37,811 nt of DNA, from positions 1 through 37,811 of the IMG/VR virus record IMGVR_UViG_3300036715_001581; one strand, 5' to 3'. Below are positions 103 through 35,257 of this stretch, in pieces (position 1 is the first letter of the stretch; each line of letters begins with the position of its first letter). Under the pieces are notes generated by a model that searched no databases, was not told where the DNA came from, and was given only the letters and a program-made list of their open reading frames with translations. The stretch comes from a virus. Position numbers and translations under genes: made by a program.

Positions 103-130
103 TTGACAATATTTTAAATTGATTTAATAT
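103..130 (+). promoter_or_regulatory. Operator-type promoter of ankyrin cassette 2
   Basis: The -35 box TTGACA is at 103-108, followed by a 16-bp spacer and -10 box TAATAT at 125-130. A perfect inverted repeat, TTAAATTGATTTAA (114-127), spans the spacer and the start of the -10 box, so a bound protein would block RNA polymerase. The leader is short, and the ribosome-binding site is AGAGGAGA at 143-150. Confidence 0.8.
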
Positions 131-832: not shown

Positions 833-860
833 TTGACAATATTTTAAATTGATTTAATAT
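833..860 (+). promoter_or_regulatory. Operator-type promoter of ankyrin cassette 3
   Basis: TTGACA is at 833-838, the spacer is 16 bp, and TAATAT is at 855-860. The inverted repeat TTAAATTGATTTAA is at 844-857. The -35 box starts two bases after the preceding stop codon. The promoter and leader repeat those at 103-156, consistent with duplication of the whole cassette. Confidence 0.8.
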
Positions 861-1655: not shown

Positions 1656-1684
1656 TTGACAATTATTTTAAATTGATTTAATAT
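1656..1684 (+). promoter_or_regulatory. Operator-type promoter for the 1711-2487 operon
   Basis: TTGACA is at 1656-1661, the spacer is 17 bp (one longer than its relatives), and TAATAT is at 1679-1684. The perfect inverted repeat TTAAATTGATTTAA is at 1668-1681. The same ACAAGAGGAGA leader follows at 1694-1704, so a non-ankyrin operon is under the same control as the ankyrin cassettes. Confidence 0.78.
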
Positions 1685-2521: not shown

Positions 2522-2549
2522 TTGACAATAAATTAAATTGATTTAATAT
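2522..2549 (+). promoter_or_regulatory. Operator-type promoter of the helicase gene
   Basis: TTGACA is at 2522-2527, the spacer is 16 bp, and TAATAT is at 2544-2549. The perfect inverted repeat TTAAATTGATTTAA is at 2533-2546. It starts three bases after the upstream terminator. Confidence 0.8.
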
Positions 2550-2574: not shown

Positions 2575-4080
2575 TTGAATAATAAACATGAATTAAGACA
2601 ATATCAAAAAGATGCAATAACAAACTTATCAGAGTCTTTTAAAAATGGTAACAAGCATGTAATATTACAAGTTGCAACTGGTGGAGGTAAAACAAGTATT
2701 GCTAGCTCTATAATTAAAAAAAATCATGATAAAAATCCAGATTTTAAAGCAATGTTTATATGTGATAGAATAGAATTAATTAACCAAACAAGTAAAAGAT
2801 TTTTAGACGATGGTATTAATCATGGGGTTATCCAATCAGATCATCCATTGGAAGACCATCGTAAAAAAATACAAGTGTGTTCCATACAATCATTGGCAAG
2901 AAGAGAATATGCAAAACCTAATTTAATTTTTATTGATGAAGCTCATACTTTATATACAGAACATAAAAACATAATAGAAAGATGGCCAGATGTTCCTATT
3001 GTTGGATTAACTGCAACACCTTATACAAAAGGGTTAGGTAATTATTTTAAAAAATTAATAGTTGGAGCTAATACAAGACAATTAATTGATTTAGGGTTTT
3101 TAGTTAACCCAAGAGTATTTGCACCGTCAAAACCTGATTTAGAAAAAATTAAAATTGTAAAAGGTGATTATGATAATACAGAATTAGGTAATGTATCATC
3201 AGATCCAAAAATAATTGGAGATATAATAGAACATTGGTTAAAACTTGCATATAATAAGCCAACTATATGCTTTGCTGTTAATATAGCACATAGTAAAGCA
3301 ATAAGAGAAGCATTTTGGGAGGCTAATATACATTGTGAGCATTTAGATGCATATACAGACGATATAGAAAGAAAAAACATTATTAAAAAATTTAAGAATG
3401 GAGAAATTAAAATATTGACTTCTGTTGATATTTTAAGTAAAGGTTTTGACTATCCAGGTGCAGAAGTTGCTATATTGGCAAGACCAACAAAATCATTAAG
3501 TCTTTATATACAGCAAGTGGGTAGAGTATTAAGAATATCACCAGAAACTGGAAAAAAAGATGCTTTAATATTAGATCATAGTGGTAATACAGAGGTTCAT
3601 GGTTTCTGTGATGAAGAATTTACTGTTGAATTAGATACTACAACAAAAGGTAAAGCAAGTCAAACATATAAAAAAGTTAAAGAAGAAATTAATGCAGTAT
3701 GTCCATCTTGTTTTTTTGTAAGAAAAACTTTTAAATGTGAAAATTGTGGTTTTGAGCATCAACCTAAAAATACAATTACAAATACTGATGGTTATTTAGT
3801 TGAAATTGTAAAAGATGAAAATAATAATAAAATAGGTAAATTAAGTGCAAAAGACTTCTTATCAATTGATAAAATAGATTTATACAGTCAATTGTTGCAA
3901 ATGTGTGAATATAAAAAATGGAAAGCAGGAAGAGCATATTTTTTATATAAAGATATAGTTGGAGTATTCCCATCTAATGAAGTAAAATCAAAATCTATCA
4001 AAAAGAAAGTTACCGAAGAAGTATATAACATGGTTACTCACTTAAATATTAAAAATGCAAGAAGTAAATATAAAAAATAA
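2575..4080 (+). CDS. DEAH-box superfamily 2 helicase with C-terminal zinc finger
   Basis: This 501-residue SF2 helicase is probably used in phage DNA replication or recombination, like the T4 UvsW-type helicases. Visible motifs are LRQYQ at 7-11, Walker A ATGGGKT at 34-40, DEAH at 121-124, TAT at 146-148 and motif VI QQVGRVLR at 313-320. A four-cysteine zinc finger follows (C376, C379, C388, C391), likely for nucleic-acid binding. The start is TTG at 2575, supported by GAGGAG a few bases upstream and by the N-terminal fit to the family. It is the only obvious replication protein; no polymerase or primase is visible, so the phage presumably relies on the host replisome. It has its own operator-type promoter. 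Confidence 0.92.
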   Translation: MNNKHELRQYQKDAITNLSESFKNGNKHVILQVATGGGKTSIASSIIKKNHDKNPDFKAMFICDRIELINQTSKRFLDDGINHGVIQSDHPLEDHRKKIQVCSIQSLARREYAKPNLIFIDEAHTLYTEHKNIIERWPDVPIVGLTATPYTKGLGNYFKKLIVGANTRQLIDLGFLVNPRVFAPSKPDLEKIKIVKGDYDNTELGNVSSDPKIIGDIIEHWLKLAYNKPTICFAVNIAHSKAIREAFWEANIHCEHLDAYTDDIERKNIIKKFKNGEIKILTSVDILSKGFDYPGAEVAILARPTKSLSLYIQQVGRVLRISPETGKKDALILDHSGNTEVHGFCDEEFTVELDTTTKGKASQTYKKVKEEINAVCPSCFFVRKTFKCENCGFEHQPKNTITNTDGYLVEIVKDENNNKIGKLSAKDFLSIDKIDLYSQLLQMCEYKKWKAGRAYFLYKDIVGVFPSNEVKSKSIKKKVTEEVYNMVTHLNIKNARSKYKK

Positions 4081-4092
4081 AATTAAAAAGAC

Positions 4093-4121
4093 TTGATTTA
4101 TTAATAAAAGTATTATATAAT
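4093..4121 (+). promoter_or_regulatory. Promoter of the Cro-like gene, with a different palindrome
   Basis: TTGATT (4093-4098), a 17-bp spacer and consensus TATAAT (4116-4121) precede the Cro-like gene. This promoter lacks the TTAAAnnnnTTTAA element. Instead its spacer holds a perfect 12-bp palindrome, TTTATTAATAAA (4097-4108). That may be an autoregulatory site for the regulator it drives, but AT-rich palindromes also arise by chance. Confidence 0.55.
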
Positions 4122-4146
4122 TAAACTATATTAAAAAGGAATAAAA

Positions 4147-4335
4147 ATGAGAAAATATATTATCGAGCAACCTGATGCTAATTACATAATTGATAAATTA
4201 GGATCTAATAATAAAATAGCTGCTAAAATTGGAGTATCTGCTGCAGCAATTTCTTATTGGAGAGAAAATGGTATTCCTGAATTAAGATTAATACAATTAA
4301 AAGTATTGTTTCCAGAGGAATTAAAAGGGATATAA
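4147..4335 (+). CDS. Small Cro/YdaS-like helix-turn-helix regulator
   Basis: The 62-residue basic protein has a helix-turn-helix at about residues 22-44 (IAAKIGVSAAAISYWRENGIP), typical of Cro/YdaS-type DNA-binding proteins. There is no dimerisation or protease domain, so it is Cro-like rather than CI-like. It is the only HTH regulator I recognise apart from the small terminase and a weak HTH in the phosphoesterase. That makes it the leading candidate to bind either the palindrome in its own promoter or the operator shared by twelve phage promoters; which one cannot be read from sequence. ATG 4147 is preceded by AAAAAGGA. The next gene begins one base after its stop. Confidence 0.8.
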   Translation: MRKYIIEQPDANYIIDKLGSNNKIAAKIGVSAAAISYWRENGIPELRLIQLKVLFPEELKGI

Positions 4336-4526: not shown

Positions 4527-4601
4527 CAGTATATAGGAAAGTTTGGTTAATCCGCTTTGTTTGGAACGAAGAGATCGTAAGTTCGAATCTTACTATACTG
4601 A
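4527..4601 (+). tRNA. tRNA-Pro(TGG)
   Basis: This is a 75-nt cloverleaf. The acceptor stem CAGTATA / TATACTG is perfect (4527-4533, 4594-4600), with A73 at 4601. The anticodon stem CTTTG / CGAAG has one G-T pair, the loop is TTTGGAA, and the anticodon TGG is at 4562-4564. The T stem GTAAG / CTTAC is perfect with loop TTCGAAT. C1-G72 and A73 agree with bacterial proline identity elements. The D stem has only three pairs plus an A-A mismatch. CCA is not encoded. It reads CCA/CCN codons and lies at the junction with the late region. Confidence 0.92.
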
Positions 4602-4607
4602 CTAATA

Positions 4608-4901: not shown

Positions 4902-4964
4902 TAAATACCTATATTATTATTATTATTTTAATTATAGTAAAAATATAAATATTAGTCAATATTT

Positions 4965-6671: not shown

Positions 6672-6775
6672 TATAATAATCCTTTTTAATTATTATATAT
6701 TATTTTAATAATTAAATCAATAAATTATTTGAATCTACTATTGCTATATTCTGAGTTGATATATTATATTTTCAT

Positions 6776-12623: not shown

Positions 12624-12692
12624 ATTTTTAATTCCTTATTTTTATTATTATAACGATATTTAAAAAATAAATCAAATTTATTAAAATAATAG

Positions 12693-12720
12693 TTGACAAT
12701 AATTTAAAGTAGTTTAATAT
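12693..12720 (+). promoter_or_regulatory. Operator-type promoter for the small-membrane-protein insert
   Basis: TTGACA is at 12693-12698, the spacer is 16 bp, and TAATAT is at 12715-12720. The operator variant TTAAAGTAGTTTAA is at 12704-12717. AAAGGAGA precedes the first gene. Confidence 0.78.
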
Positions 12721-12749: not shown

Positions 12750-12848
12750 ATGATTGCAATTACATTAATAATGGATGTTTTATTTATTTATTCAGTGATA
12801 TATTTAAAGAGAGTTTTTGTAAGAGATAATAGTAAAGTTATATTTTGA
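12750..12848 (+). CDS. Tiny membrane protein (32 residues)
   Basis: This is an ATG start with AAAGGAGA upstream and an operator-type promoter in front. The peptide is one hydrophobic helix (about residues 2-19, IAITLIMDVLFIYSVIYL) followed by a basic end. No family is recognised. The stop overlaps the TTG start of the next gene. Its own promoter and strong ribosome-binding site make it a real gene despite its size. Confidence 0.65.
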   Translation: MIAITLIMDVLFIYSVIYLKRVFVRDNSKVIF

Positions 12849-13126
12849 TTGATGAAAATTTTAAACAATTATTAATTAAAATAGAAAAACATAAATGGAA
12901 TACTTCTACAATTAAAATAAGAGAGAACAATATGCAAAATATATTAGATAAAGAAATAAATAAAAAAGATATTGAAATTAAAAAAATAAATAGAGATATT
13001 AAAATTATAAATGATAAAATAAATATTTTTGAAGAATTTATTAAAAATAAAAAATTAGAAGATGAATTTCAACTATATTATTTAAATAAGTTAGCTGATA
13101 AAATTTTTAATAAAGTGAGTAAATAA
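12845..13126 (+). CDS. Hypothetical coiled-coil protein
   Basis: The 93-residue protein is lysine-rich and strongly helical, with a likely coiled coil at about residues 33-70 (DKEINKKDIEIKKINRDI). The proposed TTG start at 12845 overlaps the upstream stop by four bases and would depend on coupling; ATG 12932, with AGAGAG upstream, is an alternative that still keeps most of the coiled coil. The family is unknown. It sits in a plus-strand block inserted between two tail genes of opposite direction. Confidence 0.6.
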   Translation: MIDENFKQLLIKIEKHKWNTSTIKIRENNMQNILDKEINKKDIEIKKINRDIKIINDKINIFEEFIKNKKLEDEFQLYYLNKLADKIFNKVSK

Positions 13127-13127
13127 C

Positions 13128-13289
13128 ATGAATAATAAACCAGATTCACATTACGATAATCAATTTAATATAGTAAAAAAAGAAAACAATAAAATTAATT
13201 ATTTAATTAAAAATACTAACTATGAATTAAAGATATTATTAGTTTATATTTTTATGTTTGTAATAATATCTTTAATTACAGGAGTATAA
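13128..13289 (+). CDS. Small tail-anchored membrane protein (53 residues)
   Basis: ATG 13128 follows directly on the stop of the previous gene. The first 33 residues are hydrophilic, and residues about 34-52 form a C-terminal membrane helix (LKILLVYIFMFVIISLITGV). The layout is that of a C-tail-anchored protein facing the cytoplasm. No family is recognised. Confidence 0.6.
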   Translation: MNNKPDSHYDNQFNIVKKENNKINYLIKNTNYELKILLVYIFMFVIISLITGV

Positions 13290-17133: not shown

Positions 17134-17195
17134 TTCTTTTTTTCCTTGTAAAGTAAAGTTTATAATATATTATAAAGCATTAATAATAAAAATCA

Positions 17196-17229
17196 AATAA
17201 AAAGACATAATAATTTATGTCTTTTTATT
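17196..17229 (-). terminator. Strong hairpin terminator after the tail tube gene
   Basis: A perfect 15-bp stem (17196-17210 with 17215-17229) has a 4-nt loop, with A and T runs in the outer arms so it could act in both directions. It sits 23 bases past the tail tube stop and would let that protein be made in excess over the chaperone and tape measure. Confidence 0.85.
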
Positions 17230-18972: not shown

Positions 18973-19521
18973 TTAAAAAGATATAACTTTTTTATAATTT
19001 TTTAATGTTACCTTTATAAATGCAGGTATATCAGAAGTTATAAAAGCAACAGTTTCACCAGCAACAACTTTACTTGATTGTTCTATATGTTCTATTTGTT
19101 TATATTTTGTTGCTATTAATTCTAAACATGCTTGCTCTATTTCAGGAGGAATTATTGAATAACCCGCTTGATAAGTTATTACACAATTTAAACGACCTCT
19201 TGCAAAAACATATCCCTGTAATGCTATTTGCTCATCATCATTAATATAACCAGCCGTATTTGTGTTTTGAGATAATGGTATAGATAAATCATTTACAACA
19301 ACACTAGTAATTGAAGTTATAGGATAATCTCCACAAATATGAAACTGATTTCCTGTACCACTAAATTTTTCAGTATATGTCTGAATTGATAATTCTTTAT
19401 TTAACCATGTTTGTATAAATTCACTACATGCAGTAACTAAACGAGTAATAAGAGCATCATCAGTTGTTCCAGTTATTCTTAAAAATTGTTTAGCATTTGA
19501 TAATGTAGTTAAATCAGCCAT
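18973..19521 (-). CDS. gp6-like head-tail connector protein
   Basis: The 182-residue protein is of the gp6-like/DNA-packaging connector type. LSNAKQFLRITGTTDDALITRLVTACSEFI-type residues at the N-terminus, a central YTEKFSGTGNQFHI beta stretch and PPEIEQACLELIATKYKQ near residue 132 match the family. It plugs onto the portal ring. Its ATG overlaps the preceding small gene's stop (TAATG). Confidence 0.88.
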   Translation of the reverse strand: MADLTTLSNAKQFLRITGTTDDALITRLVTACSEFIQTWLNKELSIQTYTEKFSGTGNQFHICGDYPITSITSVVVNDLSIPLSQNTNTAGYINDDEQIALQGYVFARGRLNCVITYQAGYSIIPPEIEQACLELIATKYKQIEHIEQSSKVVAGETVAFITSDIPAFIKVTLKNYKKVISF

Positions 19522-19688
19522 TATTTTTTACCTTTTACTTTTTCTACAAATACTTCAAAACCATGTGTTAAAGCAGTTTCTAAATGTACTAATTCTACTT
19601 CAATACAATTTTCTTCATTAACTATATATTCTTTTCCTGCTATAACTATTTTTAATAAGCTATCGCTTAATGCTTTTAATTTTATCAT
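19521..19688 (-). CDS. Small head-region protein (55 residues)
   Basis: ATG 19688 is preceded by AAAAAGGAT, and the stop overlaps the connector start. The peptide is MIKLKALSDSLLKIVIAGKE, then YIVNEENCIEVELVHLETAL, ending in a basic KVKGKK. No family is recognised. Small proteins between capsid and connector are common in this phage type and may be decoration or joining accessories. Confidence 0.7.
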   Translation of the reverse strand: MIKLKALSDSLLKIVIAGKEYIVNEENCIEVELVHLETALTHGFEVFVEKVKGKK

Positions 19689-19743
19689 ATAAAATCCTTT
19701 TTAATTATTATACATTATTTATATAAAAAAGCAAGTATAAAAT

Positions 19744-19770
19744 AAAAAACCCTTTTTTAAGAGGGCTTTT
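19744..19770 (-). terminator. Hairpin terminator after the major capsid gene
   Basis: On the minus strand, AAAAGCCCT pairs with AGGGTTTTT (one G-T pair), followed by T-rich sequence. It lies 15 bases past the capsid stop and would favour high capsid expression relative to the connector genes. Confidence 0.75.
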
Positions 19771-19784
19771 ATTTTTAATTACTA

Positions 19785-21305
19785 TTAAGCAGCAATATTA
19801 TAAATCAAACCAAAAGCTGGTGGGAAGTAATTTTTTAATACGCCATCAAAATAAACACCATACTCATATTTACGAGTTCTTAATGGCCATTCCATTTGAT
19901 AGTAATCACGTCTTAATGATTTTTCTAAAAGAACACCAGTATTACTTAATGGATAAGGTACTGATTGACTATAAAACATAATAGTACCAGGAGCAGCATT
20001 TGGATGAACTTCAATTTTAATCAAATCACCAGTTATTTTATTTAAATATGATCTAACACTTGTCCCTGCTTGTAAAGAGCTAGAACCATTGAAATCACCA
20101 GCAAATCTAACTAATGGAGCACCATTGTTTGCAATAACTAATTTTGTAATTAATGTTAATACAGAAGCACTTACATAAATTGTATCTGGACTTAAACGAT
20201 AATTTTGATAGAAAGAAATTAATGCATCTTCAATTTCTTGAACTCCACCAGCACCATCACTTGTTAAAGTTGTACCAACACCTGCTGTACCTGTTGCTAA
20301 TGCTTTAACATAAGAACCTGAACCAGGTTTTAATATTTGAGTCATTATACCGTCATAAACAGTTGAGTCAATTGAGTTATCATTAGTAAATAAAGAAGCA
20401 TTAACAGTTGAAGCTGATACATTATTAATTGTAACAGAGTTAATTGAAGTAACAGCCGTTAAAACTTCTGAACCAGCAACACCGAAGAACCAAGCATAAC
20501 CAATTGCACCAGCAACAGCTGTAACACTTGCTGTAACAGAGTTTGTAGAAGTAGCACCAGTTGTAATTGAAGTAGCTACCGATTTTCTAGCAACACCACC
20601 TGCTTTTGTATAAGAAGTACCAGAACCTTGGTCTACCACTGTATAAGTTGGTACCAAAGTAGCACTTGCTTGAATAAATGATTGATTAACAGTACCGTTA
20701 TTTAATCCAGCAACTTGTTCATAACCTTTTTTAGATAAAGCAACGCAGATTACATTATAAGTAATAGCAGTAGGTAAAAGTCCACCAGTAGTAGAAGTAG
20801 CAACAGTTGGAGTAGGAGTTGTTCCTAATGCCAAAGTAGCATTACCAGCCAAGTCTAATTGTTCTTCTTGAATCATGGTAGCTTGTAAAAGATTTTTAAC
20901 AGCAAGAGCTTTAACATCATCAAATCCTTTTGCAGCGAAATCAGCTTCAAATGTTACTGAGTTTTCTAATCCCATAAAGGCAAATTTAGCTAAATAATCA
21001 GCAGTTGTTTGAGCCATAACAGCACCACGAGCACCTTCAGCAACACCGATACCCATACCATTTGTATTAATACCTGTTATTGCTCTCCAGTTTGCTTGGA
21101 TACCCATTCCACCAACATTACGACTAATACGATTACGTAAAGGAGTCATAACTGGAAATAATAATTTTGCTCCAATTTCTAAATCGTAGTATGTAATACC
21201 AGAAATAGCAGATCCTGATTGTGTAAATGATTTAGACAATTCATCAGCAATTGGATTACTTTGAGCTGTTTTTAATGCATCAAGAGTTTTTTGTGTTTCA
21301 TTCAT
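19785..21305 (-). CDS. Major capsid protein (HK97 fold) with inserted domain
   Basis: At 506 residues it is longer than the usual 300-400 of HK97-type capsids. The N-terminal part (ISGITYYDLEIGAKLLFPVM, then TPLRNRISR) and the C-terminal LLEKSLRRDYYQMEWPLRTR fit the family. Residues about 160-310 are rich in threonine, valine and serine and resemble a bacterial Ig-like or surface decoration domain inserted in the loop region. The separate upstream protease and scaffold handle maturation. ATG 21305 has AAAAGGAAA upstream; a terminator follows. Confidence 0.9.
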   Translation of the reverse strand: MNETQKTLDALKTAQSNPIADELSKSFTQSGSAISGITYYDLEIGAKLLFPVMTPLRNRISRNVGGMGIQANWRAITGINTNGMGIGVAEGARGAVMAQTTADYLAKFAFMGLENSVTFEADFAAKGFDDVKALAVKNLLQATMIQEEQLDLAGNATLALGTTPTPTVATSTTGGLLPTAITYNVICVALSKKGYEQVAGLNNGTVNQSFIQASATLVPTYTVVDQGSGTSYTKAGGVARKSVATSITTGATSTNSVTASVTAVAGAIGYAWFFGVAGSEVLTAVTSINSVTINNVSASTVNASLFTNDNSIDSTVYDGIMTQILKPGSGSYVKALATGTAGVGTTLTSDGAGGVQEIEDALISFYQNYRLSPDTIYVSASVLTLITKLVIANNGAPLVRFAGDFNGSSSLQAGTSVRSYLNKITGDLIKIEVHPNAAPGTIMFYSQSVPYPLSNTGVLLEKSLRRDYYQMEWPLRTRKYEYGVYFDGVLKNYFPPAFGLIYNIAA

Positions 21306-22493: not shown

Positions 22494-22504
22494 TTTTTAA
22501 CCCT

Positions 22505-22831
22505 TTTAGTTTGTTTTATAGTTATTTGTACTTCTTTTAATTCATCTATATTTGTATACCCTAGAGCTTAAAGACAAAGCAATCCTATAAGATTTTTCGC
22601 TTTATCTTTTAACAATCAAAATATATTTATTAAAATATACCCTGTCGCAATTGACTTTATTACAGACTTTATGCAATATAAAAGCTTGGCTAAATTCACA
22701 ATATCTTTTAATTACACCCTAGACCGGCTCTATAATTCGCACACCGTTGCATCTGTCCACATTCTTATGCATTACAAGTTATGTTCGTTTGGCGTTATCC
22801 TCTGTATTCCATAACCATTTACTACTCTTCT
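22505..22831 (-). ncRNA. Structured RNA of unknown family, copy 1
   Basis: This gene-free stretch is a diverged copy of 36306-36619. Helices shared by both copies are GGUUAUG/CAUAACU (22816-22810, 22783-22777), UGCAU/AUGCA (22771-22767, 22752-22748), a probable pseudoknot UGGAC/GUCUA (22759-22755, 22724-22720), closing UAGAGC/GCUCUA (22732-22727, 22567-22562) and an 11-bp 3' hairpin (22609-22599, 22580-22570). Several pairs are G-U on the minus strand and would be A-C on the plus strand, which fixes the orientation. A promoter lies just upstream. There is no own terminator, so it may also serve as a leader of the protease gene. I do not recognise it as tmRNA, RNase P RNA, 6S, SRP, or a group I or II intron. 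Confidence 0.72.
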
Positions 22832-22837
22832 TAATAG

Positions 22838-22866
22838 ATTATATGGTTATATTTTAAAAAAGTCAA
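22838..22866 (-). promoter_or_regulatory. Promoter of structured RNA copy 1
   Basis: On the minus strand, TTGACT (22866-22861), a 17-bp spacer and consensus TATAAT (22843-22838) are present. The predicted start near 22831 is 15 bases before the conserved RNA. The TTAAAnnnnTTTAA operator is absent. Confidence 0.75.
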
Positions 22867-22889
22867 TATTTATTTTAAATATATTTAAT

Positions 22890-23138
22890 TTATTTCTTTT
22901 CTTCATTTAAAATAAAATCTTTTTTTGCTTTATTTTGATTAACACATAAAGCATATATTTTTTTATTTTCTATAATAACATTTATAAATTCAGCAGGAGT
23001 TCCAACTTTTGGTTTAATATATTCTTGGCAATCTTCCATAATTTCATTTGGAGCAATTAAAGTAGCTGTATTTACAACTTTTGGCATATTTGCACAACTA
23101 GATAATAAAAGTGTTAATAATAGGCTAATTTTAATCAT
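22890..23138 (-). CDS. Rz1-like outer-membrane spanin lipoprotein
   Basis: The 82-residue protein has a short signal peptide and lipobox LLSSC, with lipidation cysteine C15, followed by a soluble domain ending in lysine-rich sequence. It overlaps the end of the Rz-like gene by four bases. Together they form the two-component spanin that fuses the inner and outer membranes at lysis, which also implies a Gram-negative host. Confidence 0.85.
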   Translation of the reverse strand: MIKISLLLTLLLSSCANMPKVVNTATLIAPNEIMEDCQEYIKPKVGTPAEFINVIIENKKIYALCVNQNKAKKDFILNEEKK

Positions 23139-23521
23139 TTTATAGCATCCAATGAGTCGTTTAATGTTTTTAAATCAGTATTATTAATAGAGCAATCTTT
23201 ACTATTTAATTGAGGATTGTCATGTATTAATTTATTAACTATTACAACCCTATCTTTATAAACTGTTTCAATCTGTTTCTCTGCTTTAACTACTTCAATT
23301 GCTTTTTGTTGAATTAAACCTTGTTTTAATGCTTGTTGTTTTAATTCTTTATCTAGTGCTATATTATCAATATTTTGTTGAAAAATAACGCCTTTATTAT
23401 AACCTAAATGATGAGAGTACATAATAGAACATATTAATAAAATTATAATAAGAATAATTTGACCTATTTTTGTTGAGAAAAAATCACTAATATATTTTAA
23501 AACTAATAAAATTATTGACAT
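23135..23521 (-). CDS. Rz-like inner-membrane spanin
   Basis: The 128-residue protein has an N-terminal membrane helix at about 17-36 (IGQIILIIILLICSIMYSHH) and a periplasmic coiled coil at about 50-105. This is the i-spanin architecture. Its position immediately before the lipoprotein gene with a 4-base overlap is classic for Rz/Rz1. AAAAAAGG lies upstream of ATG 23521. Confidence 0.83.
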   Translation of the reverse strand: MSIILLVLKYISDFFSTKIGQIILIIILLICSIMYSHHLGYNKGVIFQQNIDNIALDKELKQQALKQGLIQQKAIEVVKAEKQIETVYKDRVVIVNKLIHDNPQLNSKDCSINNTDLKTLNDSLDAIK

Positions 23522-23624
23522 ATTAAAACCTTTTTTATAATTATATACTATTTATATATAAAAAACAAATTTTTTTATTGTATTTTATATATTTTAATAT
23601 ATGATATAATAAAAAGGGTTATTT

Positions 23625-23894
23625 ATGTTTGATAATAAAATAATAGAAGCCATCACTTTATCAAGTCAAGCACATCATTTAAACTGTATGCTTGCTATAT
23701 GTGAAATATTTGATTTTGTTAAAGATGCAAATGCAAGATTTGAAAATACAATAATAAATTTTAATAAAGAAGAAGATGGCACTGTATCATTATATAATAA
23801 CACTCAATTAATAGTTAATTTAGATTTTTCATTTAGAACAAAAGAAGACATAGCAAAATTACGTCTTCTTTTAATATATTTAGATAAACTATAA
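23625..23894 (+). CDS. Hypothetical protein on the plus strand within the lysis region
   Basis: This 89-residue soluble protein is not recognised. It has a helical first half (MFDNKIIEAITLSSQAHHLN) and an acidic beta-like second half (EEDGTVSLYNNTQLIVNLDF). ATG 23625 has AAAGGG upstream, and TATAAT lies at 23605-23610 without a good -35 box. Unlike the other plus-strand inserts it lacks the operator-type promoter. It converges with the holin candidate, eight bases between stops. Confidence 0.6.
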   Translation: MFDNKIIEAITLSSQAHHLNCMLAICEIFDFVKDANARFENTIINFNKEEDGTVSLYNNTQLIVNLDFSFRTKEDIAKLRLLLIYLDKL

Positions 23895-23901
23895 ATAAAA
23901 A

Positions 23902-24189
23902 TTATTTAATAGGGTTTGTTGTATATTTTCTATTAATTATATTTAAGATGGCTATAATAATAATAGCAGTAATATAATAATTCATGTTTAATGATTTAAG
24001 ATATGACAATATATCTGATGTATTGTCTGATAATTGGTTATATAATTCAAACAAAACACCAGGAACTGCAACAATAGCATTACCTATAATGGTTTTACTT
24101 TTATACCAAGCTTTTATCATTTGATCTTCTAATTCTTGCGGTATTTCTTCTAGTGAATCTTCATTTGGTGTAACTTCATCATTTTCCAT
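23902..24189 (-). CDS. Holin candidate
   Basis: The 95-residue protein has an acidic N-terminus, a first hydrophobic region at about 35-50 (TIIGNAIVAVPGVLFELY) introduced by WYKSKTI, and a C-terminal membrane helix at about 70-87 (YYITAIIIIAILNII) followed by basic residues. WYKSKTI-type starts before membrane helices occur in several phage holin families. It lies between the endolysin and spanin genes, the expected location. AAAGGAT precedes ATG 24189. Confidence 0.72.
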   Translation of the reverse strand: MENDEVTPNEDSLEEIPQELEDQMIKAWYKSKTIIGNAIVAVPGVLFELYNQLSDNTSDILSYLKSLNMNYYITAIIIIAILNIINRKYTTNPIK

Positions 24190-24243
24190 AATTTATCCTT
24201 TTTTTATATTTTATTATAACGTGTAAAATATAAAAAATCAATA

Positions 24244-24681
24244 TTAAATTATTTCTTCTAATGTACCACCATTTCTAAAATGTTTAATTGCTTCTGTATA
24301 GTCATTAATTCTTCCAGTATATTGAAAGTGTGCCATCTCTTTAAAATGGATCCAATCATGACCCCAAAACAAACCTACCCCCCGACCAATTTGACCAATT
24401 TGACTCCATTTTGGAGAGTTCCAATCAGCTTTACCATCAACTAACGGTACAACGTCCATCGCTACTTTAAAATTATGGAAAGAATAACCAGCACGAGCAT
24501 TAGTTACTATATGTCCGGGTGTTGTTCTACCTTGGTTAAATAATGCATTTTGACTCTCAGCATCTCTATAAGTTGATGTTATTAATAAATCAATCCCTGC
24601 TTCCTTGCATTTTTCTAAAAAGTGATTAGCATATATTTGAACGATAGGATGTAAATCTTCTATTTTTCTACTGTTTATCAT
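24244..24681 (-). CDS. M15-family peptidoglycan endolysin (D-Ala-D-Ala or L-Ala-D-Glu peptidase type)
   Basis: The 145-residue enzyme has the M15 zinc site S-x-H-x(6)-D (H69, D76, in SFHNFKVAMD) and a later HF histidine, H118. STYRD at 36-40 is a typical substrate-site motif. It cleaves peptide stem bonds of the cell wall at lysis. I place the start at ATG 24681, which has AATAAGGAT upstream. The frame is open further to 24759, but that extension would be a hydrophobic segment lying in the promoter region of the divergent methyltransferase; if used it would act as a membrane anchor. The holin candidate follows. Confidence 0.88.
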   Translation of the reverse strand: MINSRKIEDLHPIVQIYANHFLEKCKEAGIDLLITSTYRDAESQNALFNQGRTTPGHIVTNARAGYSFHNFKVAMDVVPLVDGKADWNSPKWSQIGQIGRGVGLFWGHDWIHFKEMAHFQYTGRINDYTEAIKHFRNGGTLEEII

Positions 24682-24752
24682 TGTTTTTATCCTTATTTTT
24701 CCTATAATTAGTATAACATAAAAAAATAAATAAAACAAGTTTAAAATAATAC

Positions 24753-24780
24753 TTGACAATATTTTAAATTGGCTTAATAT
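24753..24780 (+). promoter_or_regulatory. Operator-type promoter of the DPPY methyltransferase
   Basis: TTGACA is at 24753-24758, the spacer is 16 bp, and TAATAT is at 24775-24780. The operator variant TTAAATTGGCTTAA (24764-24777) keeps the outer arms but has a changed centre. Confidence 0.78.
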
Positions 24781-24808: not shown

Positions 24809-25894
24809 ATGAGTAATAAATATAAATTAATAAAAGGTAACTCAATAGAAGAATTAAAGCAATTTCCAGATAACCATTTTGATAGTATAGTTACAGATCC
24901 ACCTTATGAACTTGGTTTTATGGGTAAATCTTGGGACTCAACTAAAATTGCTTATAATGAAGAATTATGGAGTGAATGTTTTAGAGTATTAAAACCAGGT
25001 GGTCATTTAATAGCATTTTCTGGTTCAAGAACTTATCATCGTATGGCAGTAGCAATTGAAAATAGTGAGTTTGAAATACGCGATCAAATGCTATGGTTAT
25101 ATGGTACAGGCTTTCCAAAAAATTTAAATATTAGTAAAGCAATAGATGGTAAATTACAAGAAGTTCAAGTATATAGAGATACAAATTATGATGAAATTGA
25201 TAAAAAAAGATTAGGAAAATTAAAACCATCAACAGAAGAAGCTAAACAATGGGATGGATGGGGGACAGCTTTAAAACCAGCACATGAGCCAATGGTATTA
25301 GCAAGGAAGCCTTTATCTGAAAAAACAGTTTCTGAAAATGTATTAAAATGGGGTGTTGGTGGATTAAATATAGATGATTGTAGAGTTGAATATAAAGATA
25401 TAAAAAACGATGTAACCAATCCAAATAATGATTTAGGTAGATGGCCAGCAAATTTAATTCATGATGGTAGTGAAGAAGTAAAAAAGATTTTTCCAAATGA
25501 CAATTCAAGATTTTTTTATTGTGCAAAAGCAAGTAAAAAAGATAGAAATGATGGGTTAGATAATTTTGAATTAAAAGGTAAAATATATAATGGAAATAAT
25601 ACACAATCAACAGTAGATGGATTTAAAAAATTAAGTGTAGAAGATAAATTTACTACTAAACCATCAGCTAATAATCATCCAACTGTTAAACCTACTAATT
25701 TAATGGCTTATTTATGTAGATTAGTAACTCCACCTGGTGGAATTATATTAGATCCTTTTAATGGTAGTGGTAGCACTGGTAAAGCAGCAATAAGAGAAAA
25801 TTTTAATTATGTTGGTATTGACTTATCACAAGAGTATTTAGATATAAGTAAATCAAGAATAGATAATGAATTAAATAAAACAAGTTTAAAATAA
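24809..25894 (+). CDS. DNA methyltransferase (DPPY type, beta-class order)
   Basis: The 361-residue enzyme carries catalytic DPPY at 30-33 and the AdoMet-binding DPFNGSGSTG at 315-324, so the catalytic motif precedes the cofactor motif. It methylates adenine N6 or cytosine N4; the target cannot be read from sequence. There is no cognate endonuclease nearby, so it is probably an orphan enzyme protecting phage DNA from host restriction. Its place between endolysin and head genes, on the opposite strand and with its own operator-type promoter, marks it as an accessory insertion. Confidence 0.92.
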   Translation: MSNKYKLIKGNSIEELKQFPDNHFDSIVTDPPYELGFMGKSWDSTKIAYNEELWSECFRVLKPGGHLIAFSGSRTYHRMAVAIENSEFEIRDQMLWLYGTGFPKNLNISKAIDGKLQEVQVYRDTNYDEIDKKRLGKLKPSTEEAKQWDGWGTALKPAHEPMVLARKPLSEKTVSENVLKWGVGGLNIDDCRVEYKDIKNDVTNPNNDLGRWPANLIHDGSEEVKKIFPNDNSRFFYCAKASKKDRNDGLDNFELKGKIYNGNNTQSTVDGFKKLSVEDKFTTKPSANNHPTVKPTNLMAYLCRLVTPPGGIILDPFNGSGSTGKAAIRENFNYVGIDLSQEYLDISKSRIDNELNKTSLK

Positions 25895-25897
25895 TAG

Positions 25898-25925
25898 TTG
25901 ACAATATTTTAAATTAGTTTAAAAT
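25898..25925 (+). promoter_or_regulatory. Operator-type promoter of the 25954-26794 small-gene block
   Basis: TTGACA is at 25898-25903, the spacer is 16 bp, and TAAAAT is at 25920-25925. The operator variant TTAAATTAGTTTAA is at 25909-25922. It begins four bases after the methyltransferase stop. Confidence 0.78.
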
Positions 25926-25953: not shown

Positions 25954-26154
25954 ATGAGTAAAAAAGTAGAACTGTTACAAGAGATTAATGAATTAGTAAA
26001 ATTATTTGAATATACTAGGCATACAAAAGAATTACTTGGTTTGAAAAGAAGATATAAAATGTTAATGTGTGAATATGTTAGTGTTATAGATAAAGAAAAA
26101 CCTAAATCTAAAAAGTGTCCGTTTGATTATGAAATTAATATTCTTAAAAAATAA
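25954..26154 (+). CDS. Hypothetical protein (66 residues)
   Basis: This is an unrecognised, basic, helical protein (SKKVELLQEINELVKLFEYT, then GLKRRYKMLM). No membrane segment is present. ATG 25954 has AGAGGAAA upstream. It is the first of four small genes under one operator-type promoter. Confidence 0.62.
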   Translation: MSKKVELLQEINELVKLFEYTRHTKELLGLKRRYKMLMCEYVSVIDKEKPKSKKCPFDYEINILKK

Positions 26155-26166
26155 AGGAGTATCAAA

Positions 26167-26445
26167 ATGAATAAAATTAAAGAAATATACTTAAATTATA
26201 AAATATTAATTAAATTAATAAAATATTTATCGTTATTAAGAGATAGTGAAAGAATAGAAATTACAAAAATGTTAGATAATAAAGACTTTAATATAATTTT
26301 AAAAGAAATAAGAGATTGTATTAATTTAATTAAAGAAGATAATTACAAGTATAAAGATTTAGTGTTGGAGTCAATTAAACAATATATATATTCTGAGTTA
26401 ATTTATAAAAAATATTATAAAGGAATATATAATGAGTCAAATTGA
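26167..26445 (+). CDS. Hypothetical protein (92 residues)
   Basis: This unrecognised protein is highly helical and rich in I/L/K (IYLNYKILIKLIKYLSLLRD), probably a small helical bundle. AAAGGAGT precedes ATG 26167. Its end overlaps the start of the next gene by 14 bases, indicating tight operon packing. Confidence 0.6.
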   Translation: MNKIKEIYLNYKILIKLIKYLSLLRDSERIEITKMLDNKDFNIILKEIRDCINLIKEDNYKYKDLVLESIKQYIYSELIYKKYYKGIYNESN

Positions 26446-26638
26446 AGAAATAGTGAAAGAAAATAGTAAAGATAAAATAAATAAAGAAAAGGTATTAATT
26501 GATTTTGATTTATTTAAATCAATAATTCTTAATAAAACAAATTATAGAATAAAAGAAACCCAAACAGGTATTGGTAATAATATTACTTTAATTATAAATG
26601 GAATTGAAATAGATATTACTAACTATACAGATTGGTAA
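26432..26638 (+). CDS. Hypothetical protein (68 residues), N-terminus shared with the next gene
   Basis: This protein is unrecognised. It begins MSQIEEI, exactly like the gene at 26657, and even the ribosome-binding region (AAAGGAATATA) is shared, so the leader and first codons were duplicated. The rest is helical, then beta-like (IGNNITLIINGIEIDI). Confidence 0.6.
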   Translation: MSQIEEIVKENSKDKINKEKVLIDFDLFKSIILNKTNYRIKETQTGIGNNITLIINGIEIDITNYTDW

Positions 26639-26656
26639 ATTTAAAAGGAATATATT

Positions 26657-26794
26657 ATGAGTCAAATTGAAGAAATACTTAAAAATATTAAAGATGGTAG
26701 TGAAGATATAAAGGAGGTAAGTAAATTAAATGACTCTGAAAAAATAGATTATTATATTAAAAAATACAAAGAGTCAATTAAAGAAAATAAATAA
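26657..26794 (+). CDS. Hypothetical protein (45 residues)
   Basis: ATG 26657 follows AAAAGGAA. It starts MSQIEEI like the preceding gene and then diverges into an acidic/lysine-rich helical peptide (KNIKDGSEDIKEVSKLNDSE). The family is unknown. It is the last gene before a terminator that is shared with the convergent head gene. Confidence 0.6.
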   Translation: MSQIEEILKNIKDGSEDIKEVSKLNDSEKIDYYIKKYKESIKENK

Positions 26795-28980: not shown

Positions 28981-29045
28981 TTTAATTAACCTTTTTATTT
29001 ATAATTATATACTATTATAATAAGTTTGTAAAGATTAAATAATAG

Positions 29046-29073
29046 TTGACAATAAATTAAATTAGTTTAAAAT
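29046..29073 (+). promoter_or_regulatory. Operator-type promoter of the 29099-30744 block
   Basis: TTGACA is at 29046-29051, the spacer is 16 bp, and TAAAAT is at 29068-29073. The operator TTAAATTAGTTTAA is at 29057-29070. The ribosome-binding site is AAAAGGAGA. Confidence 0.78.
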
Positions 29074-29098: not shown

Positions 29099-29296
29099 AT
29101 GAACAGAGAAAAAAGCATTGATTACATAACACACTTATTCCCGTTAAATACTGAGATTGGTAAAGATATTGCATATGAAACAACTGGTAAAAGAGATAGT
29201 GACTATTCAAAATATAGTGACGACCAATTATTTAATATAGCATGTCAGCAATTGATTGAAGCTGGTGAAGAATTAAAGGATCATATTTATAAATAA
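29099..29296 (+). CDS. Hypothetical protein (65 residues)
   Basis: This unrecognised, acidic, soluble protein (NREKSIDYITHLFPLNTEIG, then DQLFNIACQQLIEAGEELKD) is mostly helical. It has a strong AAAAGGAGA site and its own operator-type promoter, and opens the second-largest plus-strand block, between terminase and portal. Confidence 0.65.
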   Translation: MNREKSIDYITHLFPLNTEIGKDIAYETTGKRDSDYSKYSDDQLFNIACQQLIEAGEELKDHIYK

Positions 29297-29348
29297 GCAC
29301 ACTAGCCAAATATATGAGAAATAAGATATTTTAAGAATAGGAGATATA

Positions 29349-29648
29349 ATGATAAAAGAAATTACAAAAGAAGATGCTATATTCTTTAAAAATTATTCAA
29401 AGGTAGTAAAATATAATAAAAATAGAACCGATAAAAATATTGAATTAATTAATGATATAGTTTTATGCACAAAAGATAAACACATAAATGAAATGATGGA
29501 TATAATGGAATATGCTATTTTAGAAAAAGATTATACTAAAAAATATTTAGATCTTTATAAGAGTAAATATGATAACATTATATTATATTTTAAATTAAAA
29601 GGTGAGTTATCTTTAAATACAGTAGAAAAAATTAAACATAAAATTTAA
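29349..29648 (+). CDS. Hypothetical protein (99 residues)
   Basis: This unrecognised protein is basic and helical, with aromatic residues towards the end (YLDLYKSKYDNIILYFKLKG). ATG 29349 is preceded by AGGAGA. A 7-bp hairpin begins right after its stop, before the next gene. Confidence 0.6.
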   Translation: MIKEITKEDAIFFKNYSKVVKYNKNRTDKNIELINDIVLCTKDKHINEMMDIMEYAILEKDYTKKYLDLYKSKYDNIILYFKLKGELSLNTVEKIKHKI

Positions 29649-29685
29649 GTTACTCTTATCGATTTAATAATTGAGTAACGGGGGG
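29649..29685 (+). promoter_or_regulatory. Hairpin followed by a G6 ribosome-binding site
   Basis: GTTACTC (29649-29655) pairs with GAGTAAC (29673-29679), starting immediately after a stop codon. It is followed by six G's (29680-29685) a few bases before ATG 29690. A G6 run is striking in this AT-rich sequence. Stem formation may affect access to this site or protect the mRNA end. Confidence 0.4.
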
Positions 29686-29689
29686 AAAC

Positions 29690-30007
29690 ATGACTATTGA
29701 AATAATTAACAACTATAATATAAAATATATAATGAAACAAATTATCAATACACAACATTTAATTTATTATAACAAATCAAATATTACAAATATAATAAAT
29801 GAATTAAATAATAATAATCTTATAGTTAATATAAGTTCTGATAAATATTGGAATACAATATTTTATGAAATTTTATTTACTAATAATTATATTTATATAT
29901 TATGTTTAGAAGATGATTTTTTAAATAAAATATTATTAAAATTAGAATTAGAAAAACAATTAAATAATAAAAATGAGGTAAAATATAATGGAAAAAGCAA
30001 GATATAA
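29690..30007 (+). CDS. Hypothetical protein (105 residues) with a degenerate KSKI tail
   Basis: This unrecognised protein is asparagine/isoleucine-rich (MTIEIINNYNIKYIMKQIIN, then NITNIINELNNNNLIVNISS), with a beta-like hydrophobic centre and a C-terminus LEKQLNNKNEVKYNGKSKI that resembles the tail of the ankyrin proteins. It has a G-rich ribosome-binding site. It overlaps the next gene by 20 bases. Confidence 0.6.
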   Translation: MTIEIINNYNIKYIMKQIINTQHLIYYNKSNITNIINELNNNNLIVNISSDKYWNTIFYEILFTNNYIYILCLEDDFLNKILLKLELEKQLNNKNEVKYNGKSKI

Positions 30008-30359
30008 TATATTAAATAGCAATCATAAGCAAGTATCAAAAATATATATTAACGATTTAGTTGAGTTTAAACAATTTTTTATTGATATTAATGCTGAGTC
30101 ATTTTATTACTTTGATTATGAAAATTATATTAGCATATTTGAAATACTAACAAAATCATATAATGAATATATTGTTATAGCAAGAATTAATATAGATTAT
30201 CATGTATCGTTATGCAATAATTATAATTATGAAGATGATTTTAATTTAATAAAAGATGAGCTAATTAAAAAAATAGAGATTAATCCAATTTATAGAAAAT
30301 GGTTATTGGAGCAAGAATTAAATAAAAATGAAATAGTAGTTAAAAAATCAAAAATATAA
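29988..30359 (+). CDS. Hypothetical protein (123 residues) sharing the ankyrin-cassette C-terminal tail
   Basis: No ankyrin repeats are present. The body is acidic and aromatic (NAESFYYFDYENYISIFEIL). The C-terminus ELNKNEIVVKKSKI is nearly the tail of the ankyrin proteins (LNNNKIIVKKSKI), so a tail has been shared between unrelated bodies. ATG 29988 has GAGG upstream, inside the previous gene. The function is unknown. Confidence 0.65.
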   Translation: MEKARYNILNSNHKQVSKIYINDLVEFKQFFIDINAESFYYFDYENYISIFEILTKSYNEYIVIARINIDYHVSLCNNYNYEDDFNLIKDELIKKIEINPIYRKWLLEQELNKNEIVVKKSKI

Positions 30360-30375
30360 CAAAAGGATAAACAAA

Positions 30376-30744
30376 ATGTACTTAGAATTTATTAATAAAT
30401 CAATAAAAAACGGTGAAAAAATTCACCCTAATAATGATTATGCTTTAATTTGGAGTGTTTCTAATGGACATTTAGATATTATTAAATATTTAGTAGAACA
30501 AGGGGTTAATATTAATATTAAAGATGATTTTGCGTTAAGATGGAGTGCTTATAATGGATATTTAGAAATTGTTAAATATTTAGTAATTGATTGTAATATA
30601 ACTATAAAAGAAGATGTATTACAATTTTTAAAAAAATATGATTGTCAAAAAACTCTTAAAATTATAAACACAAGAGATTTTAAAAATAAATTATGTAAAG
30701 AATTAAATAATAATCAAATAGTAGTTAAAAAAAGTAAGATATAA
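30376..30744 (+). CDS. Short ankyrin-repeat protein (two full units)
   Basis: The 122-residue protein has a divergent start (MYLEFINKSIKNGEKIHPNN), two full 30-residue ankyrin units (NGHLDIIKYLVEQGVNINIK and NGYLEIVKYLVIDCNITIKE) and the shared tail ending VVKKSKI. It is a diverged relative of the cassette genes near the window ends. AAAAGGA precedes ATG 30376. It belongs to the block begun at 29099 rather than having its own promoter, and the next promoter starts two bases after its stop. Confidence 0.85.
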   Translation: MYLEFINKSIKNGEKIHPNNDYALIWSVSNGHLDIIKYLVEQGVNINIKDDFALRWSAYNGYLEIVKYLVIDCNITIKEDVLQFLKKYDCQKTLKIINTRDFKNKLCKELNNNQIVVKKSKI

Positions 30745-30745: not shown

Positions 30746-30773
30746 TTGACAATATTTTAAATTAGTTTAATAT
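30746..30773 (+). promoter_or_regulatory. Operator-type promoter of the EcoRI-type methyltransferase
   Basis: TTGACA is at 30746-30751, the spacer is 16 bp, and TAATAT is at 30768-30773. The operator TTAAATTAGTTTAA is at 30757-30770. As in the ankyrin cassettes, it follows the tail codons directly. Confidence 0.8.
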
Positions 30774-30792: not shown

Positions 30793-31674
30793 ATGAATTT
30801 AAATAGCAAATTAAGTAAAGCTAAAAAAAATAAAAATGATGAATTTTATACAAAGTTAATTTACATAGAAAATGAATTAAAACATTACAAACATCACTTT
30901 GAAAATAAAGTTGTATTTTGTAATTGTGATGATCCTGAATGGTCAAATTTCTATATTTTTTTTAAATCCAAATTAAATGAATATAAGATAAAAAAACTTA
31001 TATTTACTCACTACAAAGATAATAATTTATACGATCAATTATACAAATTAGAGTGTATAACCATAGTGAATAATAATGGACTGATTATAGAGAATAAAAC
31101 ATATTTGAAAGATAATGGAGATTTTAGAAGTGAAGAGTGCATTGAACTTTTAAAGCAGTCAGATATTGTTTGTACTAACCCGCCATTTTCTTTATTTAGA
31201 GAATATATGGATCAATTAAATAAATACAATAAAGAATTTTTAATAATTGGTAATATGAATTCGATTGCTTGTAAAGATATATTTAATTTAGTCAAAGACA
31301 ATAAATTATGGCTTGGTGTCAGTCCAAGAGGTATGTTTTTTAAAACAAAAGATGGTGGAGATAAGGAAGTTAATGCAGCATGGTTTACTAATTTAACACA
31401 TAATAAAAAAAATGAAGATATTTACTTAAATGCAAAGTATTCAACAGAAACTTATTCAAATTATGACAATCATACGGCTATTGAAGTATCTAAAACAAAA
31501 AATATACCTTGCGATTATAAAGGTATAATGGGAGTTCCACTTACATTTTTAGACAGATATAATCCAGAGCAATTTGAAATTGTTGGATTAAAAAAGGGGT
31601 TAGATGGTAAAGATTTAAGATTAAATAATAAAGTTTTATATACTAGAATTTTAATAAAAAACATAAAGATATAA
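30793..31674 (+). CDS. EcoRI-family adenine-specific DNA methyltransferase
   Basis: The 293-residue protein matches the EcoRI methylase family (PF13651-type): N-terminal KAKKNKNDEFYT, the CDDPEWSNF block at 45-53, catalytic NPPF at 129-132, and ISPRG-like plus AAWFTNL segments later. It would methylate adenine N6. No partner nuclease is visible, so an anti-restriction or epigenetic role is likely. AATAGGAGA lies upstream of ATG 30793. It converges on the large terminase, five bases between stops. Confidence 0.9.
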   Translation: MNLNSKLSKAKKNKNDEFYTKLIYIENELKHYKHHFENKVVFCNCDDPEWSNFYIFFKSKLNEYKIKKLIFTHYKDNNLYDQLYKLECITIVNNNGLIIENKTYLKDNGDFRSEECIELLKQSDIVCTNPPFSLFREYMDQLNKYNKEFLIIGNMNSIACKDIFNLVKDNKLWLGVSPRGMFFKTKDGGDKEVNAAWFTNLTHNKKNEDIYLNAKYSTETYSNYDNHTAIEVSKTKNIPCDYKGIMGVPLTFLDRYNPEQFEIVGLKKGLDGKDLRLNNKVLYTRILIKNIKI

Positions 31675-33376: not shown

Positions 33377-33406
33377 TTTATAATTCCTAATAATATATTA
33401 TTAAAG

Positions 33407-33479
33407 TGCTGATTGTAAGATTTGAACTCACGACCTACTGATTACAAATCAGTTGCTCTACCATCTGAGCTAAACCAGC
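33407..33479 (-). tRNA. tRNA-Thr(TGT)
   Basis: This is a 73-nt cloverleaf on the minus strand. The acceptor GCTGGTT / AATCAGC has one G-T pair and is followed by A73. The D arm GCTC...GAGC is complete, the anticodon stem ACTGA / TCAGT is perfect with loop TTTGTAA and anticodon TGT, and the T stem GTGAG / CTTAC has one G-T pair and loop TTCAAAT. CCA is not encoded. It would support ACA codons, which are frequent in the threonine-rich structural genes. Confidence 0.94.
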
Positions 33480-33502
33480 ATACTATTATTATAATTGAAT
33501 TA

Positions 33503-33832
33503 TTAACTTAAATCAATATCAGTATTACTTTCGCTTAAATTAATGTATATCTCATTGTCAATTGTCGTATTTGAGCTTAAATATTTATTAATAAATACAT
33601 CCAATAACTCCTCAGTTGTATATGATTTTAAATTAGATAATACACATACACAAGTTAATAAATCATAATACATGTTTATTTGATTATTATGAGGGTAATA
33701 TATAAAAGTAATATCATTATAGGTTAATTCATATATTGTTAAATTAACTCTATCATTATCAATAATTATAGTCTCACCATCATTTATAATCTTTTCTTTA
33801 ATTTCTTCTAATACTTTTTTAAATTGTTCCAT
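33503..33832 (-). CDS. Hypothetical acidic protein (109 residues)
   Basis: This unrecognised protein is acidic, with an N-terminal helix (EQFKKVLEEIKEKIINDGET) and a beta-rich centre (NDITFIYYPHNNQINMYYDL). It is followed by tRNA-Thr and terminase on the same strand. AAGGAAAA lies upstream of ATG 33832. Confidence 0.62.
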   Translation of the reverse strand: MEQFKKVLEEIKEKIINDGETIIIDNDRVNLTIYELTYNDITFIYYPHNNQINMYYDLLTCVCVLSNLKSYTTEELLDVFINKYLSSNTTIDNEIYINLSESNTDIDLS

Positions 33833-34328: not shown

Positions 34329-34356
34329 ATTTTAAACTATTTTAATTAAATGTCAA
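34329..34356 (-). promoter_or_regulatory. Operator-type promoter (minus strand) of the 34306-33503 operon
   Basis: On the minus strand, TTGACA is at 34356-34351, the spacer is 16 bp, and TAAAAT is at 34334-34329. The operator TTAAAATAGTTTAA occupies 34345-34332. The -35 box overlaps the last codons of the upstream methyltransferase. Confidence 0.78.
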
Positions 34357-35257
34357 CCTTATTTATTCGTTTAACAGCAATATTATAAAAATCTTTATCT
34401 AATTCTATTCCTATAAAGTTTCTATTAGTATTTACACAAGCAACACCAGTTGAACCTGAACCCATTGTTAAATCGACAACTAAATTATTCTCATTAGAAA
34501 AAGTTTTAATTAAGTCCTCTAATAACAAAATAGGCTTTTGAGTTGGATGATAATTGTTATTATCTTTTTTATATTCAAATATAGTTGATTTATGTTTTTT
34601 ACCTTGTAAATTAAATATTGATGGATAAAGTTTATTATAAATTTCTTTTAGTTTTTTATATTCAATAAATCCATCCATTTTATCTATATTATATAAATCA
34701 ATTAATTTACTATATGATTTCTCAGTACATAAATTAAATTGAGCACCATTATATTGGTAAAATTTACTTAATGAACAATTAAAATGTACATTTAATTCTT
34801 TTTTACTTATTCCAATAAAACTAAAAAGTAATTTACTATAATTTATTAAAGGATTTGTTAAACTAGTATCATATTTTTTGTTAAATAATAATATATCTTC
34901 ATGATATTTAACACATGCTTTTTTAGCAGATAAAGCATTAGCAAACTTATTTTTTTTCCATATCATAGAATAAGAATATGGAATATTTACATTTTTATTT
35001 ATTTTTAATTCTGTTGAAAATGGATCCTGTGCAAATAATAACATTTTACCATTTTTTCTTAAAATTCTATTAGCAATATCCATAATTTTTTTAGTATCAA
35101 TAACATTATCCCAATCAAGAGATTTACTACTATAACCACCACTATCATTCATACCTTTTATTGTTCCATAAGGTAAATCAGTTATTATTAAATCAACACT
35201 ACCTGATTCTATTTTATCACTTTCAAATAAACAATCTCCATTATATAACTTAATCAT
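34346..35257 (-). CDS. DNA methyltransferase with DLPY variant motif
   Basis: Using ATG 35257 the protein has 303 residues. The catalytic motif is DLPY (27-30), a variant of DPPY, and the AdoMet site is DLTMGSGSTG (262-271), in the same motif order as the 24809 enzyme. The frame opens four codons earlier (35269), but ATG 35257 overlaps the upstream TGA as ATGA and has GGGG before it, so coupling is likely. A middle insertion (about 120-230) replaces the usual target-recognition part. It is an orphan, probably anti-restriction. It is the third methyltransferase in the genome. Confidence 0.88.
   Translation of the reverse strand: MIKLYNGDCLFESDKIESGSVDLIITDLPYGTIKGMNDSGGYSSKSLDWDNVIDTKKIMDIANRILRKNGKMLLFAQDPFSTELKINKNVNIPYSYSMIWKKNKFANALSAKKACVKYHEDILLFNKKYDTSLTNPLINYSKLLFSFIGISKKELNVHFNCSLSKFYQYNGAQFNLCTEKSYSKLIDLYNIDKMDGFIEYKKLKEIYNKLYPSIFNLQGKKHKSTIFEYKKDNNNYHPTQKPILLLEDLIKTFSNENNLVVDLTMGSGSTGVACVNTNRNFIGIELDKDFYNIAVKRINKVDI

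Follow-up and report, generated by a model that had tools for sequence, protein, structure and literature searches.

Why does one promoter-like element recur at dispersed sites on both strands of this phage genome, and do the genes behind it answer to a single DNA-binding protein, as a preliminary description of this DNA proposed? The window, the whole 37,811-nucleotide stretch analysed here, is a virus record that begins and ends with the same 100 bases, and it was therefore treated as a 37,711-bp circle. Reading back the sequence confirmed all twelve modules at the positions and on the strands originally reported. They are given below with the genes that they precede, together with a thirteenth operator outside the modules.

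103-130, plus strand: module before the ankyrin-repeat gene 157-831; operator 114-127
833-860, plus strand: module before the ankyrin-repeat gene 887-1606; operator 844-857
1656-1684, plus strand: module with a 17-nt spacer before small genes 1711-2487; operator 1668-1681
2522-2549, plus strand: module before the DEAD/ResIII-type helicase gene 2575-4080; operator 2533-2546
12693-12720, plus strand: module before the plus-strand island 12750-13289; operator 12704-12717
24753-24780, plus strand: module before the N6/N4 DNA methylase gene 24809-25894; operator 24764-24777 (right half CTTAA)
25898-25925, plus strand: module before small genes 25954-26794; operator 25909-25922
29046-29073, plus strand: module before small genes 29099-30359; operator 29057-29070
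30746-30773, plus strand: module before the EcoRI-type adenine methylase gene 30793-31674; operator 30757-30770
37277-37304, plus strand: module before the ankyrin-repeat gene that starts at 37330 and spans the join; operator 37288-37301
34329-34356, minus strand: module before small genes 34306-33503; operator 34332-34345
36261-36288, minus strand: module before the metallophosphoesterase gene 36231-35254 and the DNA methylase gene 35269-34346; operator 36264-36277
22875-22888, no strand: thirteenth operator TTAAATATATTTAA, not part of a module, 8 nt upstream of the capsid promoter

The module at 12693 heads an island (12750-13289, plus strand) that sits among minus-strand tail genes. Three DNA methylases (24809-25894; 30793-31674, EcoRI-type; 34346-35269) all lie behind modules and are probably anti-restriction functions.

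Each module combines a promoter, an operator and a ribosome-binding site in one unit, in the order TTGACA, a 16-nt spacer, TAATAT, TAAAAT or TAAATT, and then GAGG or GGAG. The 14-bp operator, TTAAA-N4-(T/C)TTAA, lies inside the spacer between the -35 and -10 boxes. The initial account of boxes and spacer holds, with corrections at 24753 (right half CTTAA), 1656 (spacer 17 nt) and 37277 (TAAATT). Columns were compared across the eight sites with unrelated flanks, counting the first T of TTGACA as column 1. Columns 12-16 (TTAAA) and 22-25 (TTAA) are invariant in 8/8 of these sites, and column 21 reads T at seven sites and C at the eighth. The operator centre is variable except for an invariant T at column 18; columns 9-11, 17, 19-20 and 26 vary, and conservation in the flanks does not exceed background. 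GAGG or GGAG lies upstream of 12/12 module-headed genes or operons, versus 5 of ~41 other genes (Fisher p = 2e-8). At 30746 this Shine-Dalgarno sequence starts 6 nt past TAATAT, which fixes the -10 box as TAATAT, and a downstream TATAAT was rejected as the true -10. MerR-type activation requires a spacer of about 19 nt (19-20 nt), so that a MerR-type spacer operator is excluded by the module spacers of 16-17 nt.

The signal resides in the spacer and not in the hexamers, since a scan with the sigma-70 consensus alone found no excess of promoters over shuffles. A weight matrix built from the sites recovers exactly the 12 modules in a genome scan, at 28.4-37.6 bits; the best separate non-module candidate scores 10.2 bits, and maxima in 8 simulated genomes reach 14.6 bits. 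On the circular map there are 10 occurrences of the pattern TTGACA-N3-5-TTAAA-N4-TTTAA, versus 0.0 in 30 fourth-order Markov genomes. The dyad TTAAR-N4-YTTAA, which is symmetric, occurs 13 times genome-wide and always in noncoding DNA (13/13), which makes up only 8% of the genome; 12 of these 13 dyads are located within promoters. One-mismatch dyads are mostly coding (28/32). The operator is AT-only in a genome of 26% GC, and a dyad of the broad type is present in about 1.2% of random 22-mers. Beyond this population, exact-pattern scans of 257 Gb of genomes returned 29 single matches on unrelated contigs, a chance-level yield, and a near-identity search in phages gave no match.

The modules had also been described as copied. 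This applies to two groups of sites with shared flanks, one comprising 103, 833, 1656, 30746 and 37277 and the other 24753 and 25898; the remaining five, whose flanks are unrelated, look as if they are maintained by selection. The sequence shared upstream of the five ankyrin-associated sites mostly encodes a tail, KKSKI*, or its remnant. Sister assemblies 3300037010 and 3300035181 (L011 1-868, L098 1-815) contain one more ankyrin gene (255 aa) and, with it, a thirteenth module, which is absent from the window and falls between window positions 37811 and 1. Thus, the window circle is closed across an identical 100-nt repeat, and the window has lost one ankyrin cassette, by assembly or by real recombination. 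A C-terminal IVVKKSKI or KIIVKKSKI is common to ankyrin and non-ankyrin proteins (29988-30359, 30376-30744, 157-831 and 37330 onward), possibly as a shared tag or as a by-product of cassette recombination. Two adjacent small genes at 26432-26794 are partial duplicates, both starting with MSQIEEI(V/L)K. A phage-like contig with ankyrin genes, 3300010412_000055 (L155, L156, L162-L164), which is unrelated in other respects, carries TTGCAAAAAATTAAAAATTAYGTTA, a promoter of its own, in three copies next to ankyrin genes and may be a parallel to the modules of the window.

The candidate reader of the operator is a small protein encoded just behind the helicase gene, with no divergent CI neighbour among the proteins scanned.

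4147-4335, plus strand: Cro-like repressor of 62 aa, recognition helix SAAAISYW, Pfam P22_Cro match
4121-4134, plus strand: one-mismatch operator TTAAA-CTAT-ATTAA (TTAAACTATATTAA) at the start of the Cro-like transcript

The protein scores 34.8 bits against Pfam P22_Cro (PF14549), above the cut-off of 30.2, and its PDB matches are P22 Cro 1rzs (E=0.0016), Cro 3bd1 and XPH1 5w8y; a single-sequence structure model was of low confidence and yielded no useful fold match. Among the window proteins scanned, no CI-type repressor, integrase or other HTH regulator was recognised. By sequence, the module has the P22-Cro operator layout, in which two half-sites TWAAx flank a 4-nt centre. The P22 operators are TTAAG-TCAT-CTTAA, TAAAG-ATTC-CTTTA and TTAAG-TGTT-CTTTA (P22 record), one of them inside the PR spacer, and the solved structure of the P22 repressor complex contains the site CATTTAAGATATCTTAAATA (PMC9976882). 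Across P22-Cro-family phages, Ala at helix residue 4 accompanies the half-site xAA in 6/6 cases and Ser or Thr accompanies xAG in 4/4, an association with a Fisher p of 0.005 among about ten other phages in which operators were assigned partly by eye and several phages lacked a clear site. Two further Ser cases agree, and Valp1 obeys the rule only when xAA is allowed to be AAA. A helix/half-site correlation has been described before (Hall 2005, as cited in PMC4997575). The Cro-like protein of the window has Ala4 and the module half-site is TAA, which fits the rule.

A capsid search led to the closest relative found, IMGVR_UViG_3300002461_000454 (35,830 bp), with a capsid 64% identical and structural genes largely syntenic with those of the window. 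Its Cro is 40% identical to that of the window, with a nearly identical helix (ASAAVSYWR versus SAAAISYWR), and the Tyr7/A variant of the half-site rule is seen only in these two phages. The relative carries seven modules, at 1307, 3210, 6258, 19323, 22594 and 34146 on the plus strand and at 318 on the minus strand, with the same dyad offset of 11 nt (7 observed versus 0 in 50 simulated genomes). They head mostly different genes from those of the window, and the module-headed plus-strand islands 19384-20043 and 22649-24324 lie between different late genes and hold genes unmatched in the window; the helicase-cro region is headed by a module in both phages. All exact operators are noncoding in both. 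A perfect operator, TTAAAGGAGTTTAA at 8049, covers the ribosome-binding site of the relative's cro and corresponds to the near copy at 4121-4134 in the window. A SegE-type GIY-YIG endonuclease (36795-37217, minus strand) is 58% identical to one in this relative.

Eight other relatives, several of them partial contigs, have neither Cro nor modules, and the expectation that more distant Cro-bearing phages would carry modules was rejected (0/5, Cro ~43% identity). A terminase search returned only the same population and relatives of at most 63% identity, and no repeated TTGACW modules outside the window emerged from a clustering scan of the loci from that search. The proposal of one regulon under one DNA-binding protein draws its support from comparison, that is, from an operator geometry of the P22-Cro type and from a relative carrying both Cro and modules.

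The module had been reported as absent from the recognised structural and lysis genes, and this is borne out; these genes carry a second class of promoter (class II), consisting of a TTGATT-like box, 16-17 nt, TATAAT and then AAAAGG, without an operator. Class II promoters mark the minus-strand structural and lysis genes, and the Cro-like gene also has one.

4093-4121, plus strand: class II promoter of the Cro-like gene, TTGATT-17-TATAAT
4931-4959, minus strand: class II promoter before 4901
6692-6720, minus strand: class II promoter before the tail-fibre-like gene 6671
12647-12675, minus strand: class II promoter for the tail gene 12623; module 12693 stands back to back with it
17169-17196, minus strand: class II promoter before 17133
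19707-19734, minus strand: class II promoter before head-tail genes
22838-22866, minus strand: promoter TTGACT-17-TATAAT before the prohead protease and capsid genes
23540-23568, minus strand: class II promoter before spanin-like genes
24213-24241, minus strand: class II promoter before 24189
24710-24738, minus strand: class II promoter for the VanY-type endolysin gene; module 24753 stands back to back with it
29004-29032, minus strand: class II promoter for the portal gene; module 29046 stands back to back with it
33488-33516, minus strand: class II promoter before tRNA-Thr, terS and terL

Module 34356 is less likely to be the terminase promoter, given the class II promoter at 33516. The tRNA genes are tRNA-Pro(tgg) at 4527-4602 (plus strand) and tRNA-Thr(tgt) at 33406-33479 (minus strand). 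A leader of ~340 nt (22494-22838, minus strand) separates a strong promoter, with an operator just upstream, from the prohead protease and capsid genes; its predicted folding is modest (z -1), and an Rfam search of it gave no match.

Modules and class II promoters stand back to back at four junctions, with -35 boxes about 9-17 bp apart, which is too close for two polymerases. The -35 starts are 13, 14 and 17 bases apart at 29046, 24753 and 12693, respectively, and the fourth junction, at 37277, is weaker. A single operator might thus serve as a two-way switch, in which the strong early promoter holds the late one off until Cro binding silences the early promoter and frees the late one, and Cro may also activate the capsid promoter at 22866 from upstream. 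We advance this only tentatively, as it is rather less than probable. If it were true, accessory genes would join the timetable simply by arriving with a module.

The reading that we favour, at a probability of about 0.72, is a CI-less regulon in which the Cro-like repressor shuts off dispersed early promoters in a lytic role, with late genes on class II promoters. The twelve modules would act as strong promoters of the host sigma-70 type, each with one 14-bp operator and a strong Shine-Dalgarno sequence close downstream, and the early and accessory genes would fire upon phage entry. The Cro-like protein would be made from its own class II promoter, the operator at its own start damping synthesis, and as a dimer it would bind the operator, for which TTAAATTGATTTAA is the proposed target DNA, and block RNA polymerase. 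It would then shut the module promoters, while late genes would run from the operator-free class II promoters. What the sequences themselves establish is the modules, the second promoter class, the protein family, the operator geometry and the pairing of Cro with modules in two diverged phages; binding, repression, autoregulation and timing are what we infer. Since no CI-type repressor was recognised among the proteins scanned, the role of the Cro-like protein is likely lytic. Counting against this reading are the AT-only operator in an AT-rich genome, the by-eye operator assignments in other phages, the five distant Cro-bearing phages that have no modules, the poor structure model and the greater distance of the operator from the -35 box than in P22.

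The operator could also be real and yet have a different reader, be it a regulator of the host or some small, uncharacterised protein of the phage, with the Cro-like protein acting otherwise. The phage has many small proteins without a family; however, the modules and the Cro recognition helix are retained together in the relative, Cro-less relatives are without modules, and the operator geometry is of the P22-Cro type. Bacterial genomes yield only isolated, scattered matches to the exact pattern, and this speaks against a host regulon. We consider a different reader unlikely.

Modules that are merely strong promoters, spread by duplication and alike by descent, would need no regulator at all. 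Descent of this kind would explain the flanks shared in two groups (the five ankyrin-type copies and the pair 24753/25898) and the number of ankyrin cassettes, which differs between assemblies. It does not readily explain why, at the eight sites with unrelated flanks, the half-sites are constant and the adjacent spacer columns are not, or why the half-sites, and not the remaining spacer, are kept in a relative of 64% capsid identity; sigma-70 requires no fixed spacer sequence. The absence of any regulator is thus quite improbable. Very improbable, in our judgement, is that activation or antitermination acts on the modules, which would then mark middle or late genes. A protein bound at the thirteenth operator, just upstream of the capsid promoter at 22866, could activate, but the module operator overlaps the RNA polymerase site in a promoter with a perfect -35 box and normal spacing, and the structural genes use another promoter class.

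The favoured Cro regulon has partial counterparts in known systems. T4-type mobile regulatory cassettes, reportedly described by Arbiol in 2010, are said to consist of a promoter and a stem-loop that move together between genes; the window is alike in repeating a promoter cassette before small accessory genes, possibly for use in shuffling. To our knowledge, no operator or dedicated repressor has been described for the T4-type cassettes. The window shows shared flanks and a variable cassette number but no general stem-loop; an AT-rich terminator-like stem precedes module 2522 and is seen only there. P22/lambdoid Cro with OR/OL is alike in protein family, in the half-site-N4-half-site layout and in an operator within the early-promoter spacer, and by analogy the proposed role, early shut-off during lytic growth, may be alike as well. 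Unlike the P22/lambdoid switch, the window has no divergent CI (among the proteins scanned) or triple-operator switch, and it has one operator per promoter at 12 dispersed promoters. Its half-site ends in A, whereas that of P22 ends in G, and the module operator lies 6 bp further from the -35 box than P22 OR2.

Dispersed phage operators as such are already known. Phage P1 has 22 under one phage repressor, C1 (PMC8546580), and mycobacteriophage L5-type repressors have >20 operator/stoperator sites across one phage genome (PMC9283540). The P1 operators are asymmetric 17-bp sequences under a prophage repressor, C1; the L5-type stoperators are asymmetric 13-mers, oriented with transcription and in many cases off promoters. 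In contrast, the window sites are symmetric and lie in promoters. P1 C1 and the L5-like repressors maintain lysogeny, whereas the window protein is of the Cro type, with no recognised CI partner. The window sites would be a Cro-type, symmetric and promoter-embedded form of such dispersed operators.

Thus, a Cro-family protein is apparently the master of a dispersed lytic regulon without a CI partner, and the half-site rule for P22-type Cro proteins is now testable. The promoter-operator-ribosome-binding-site unit lets non-homologous accessory genes enter one regulon, at differing positions in related phages.
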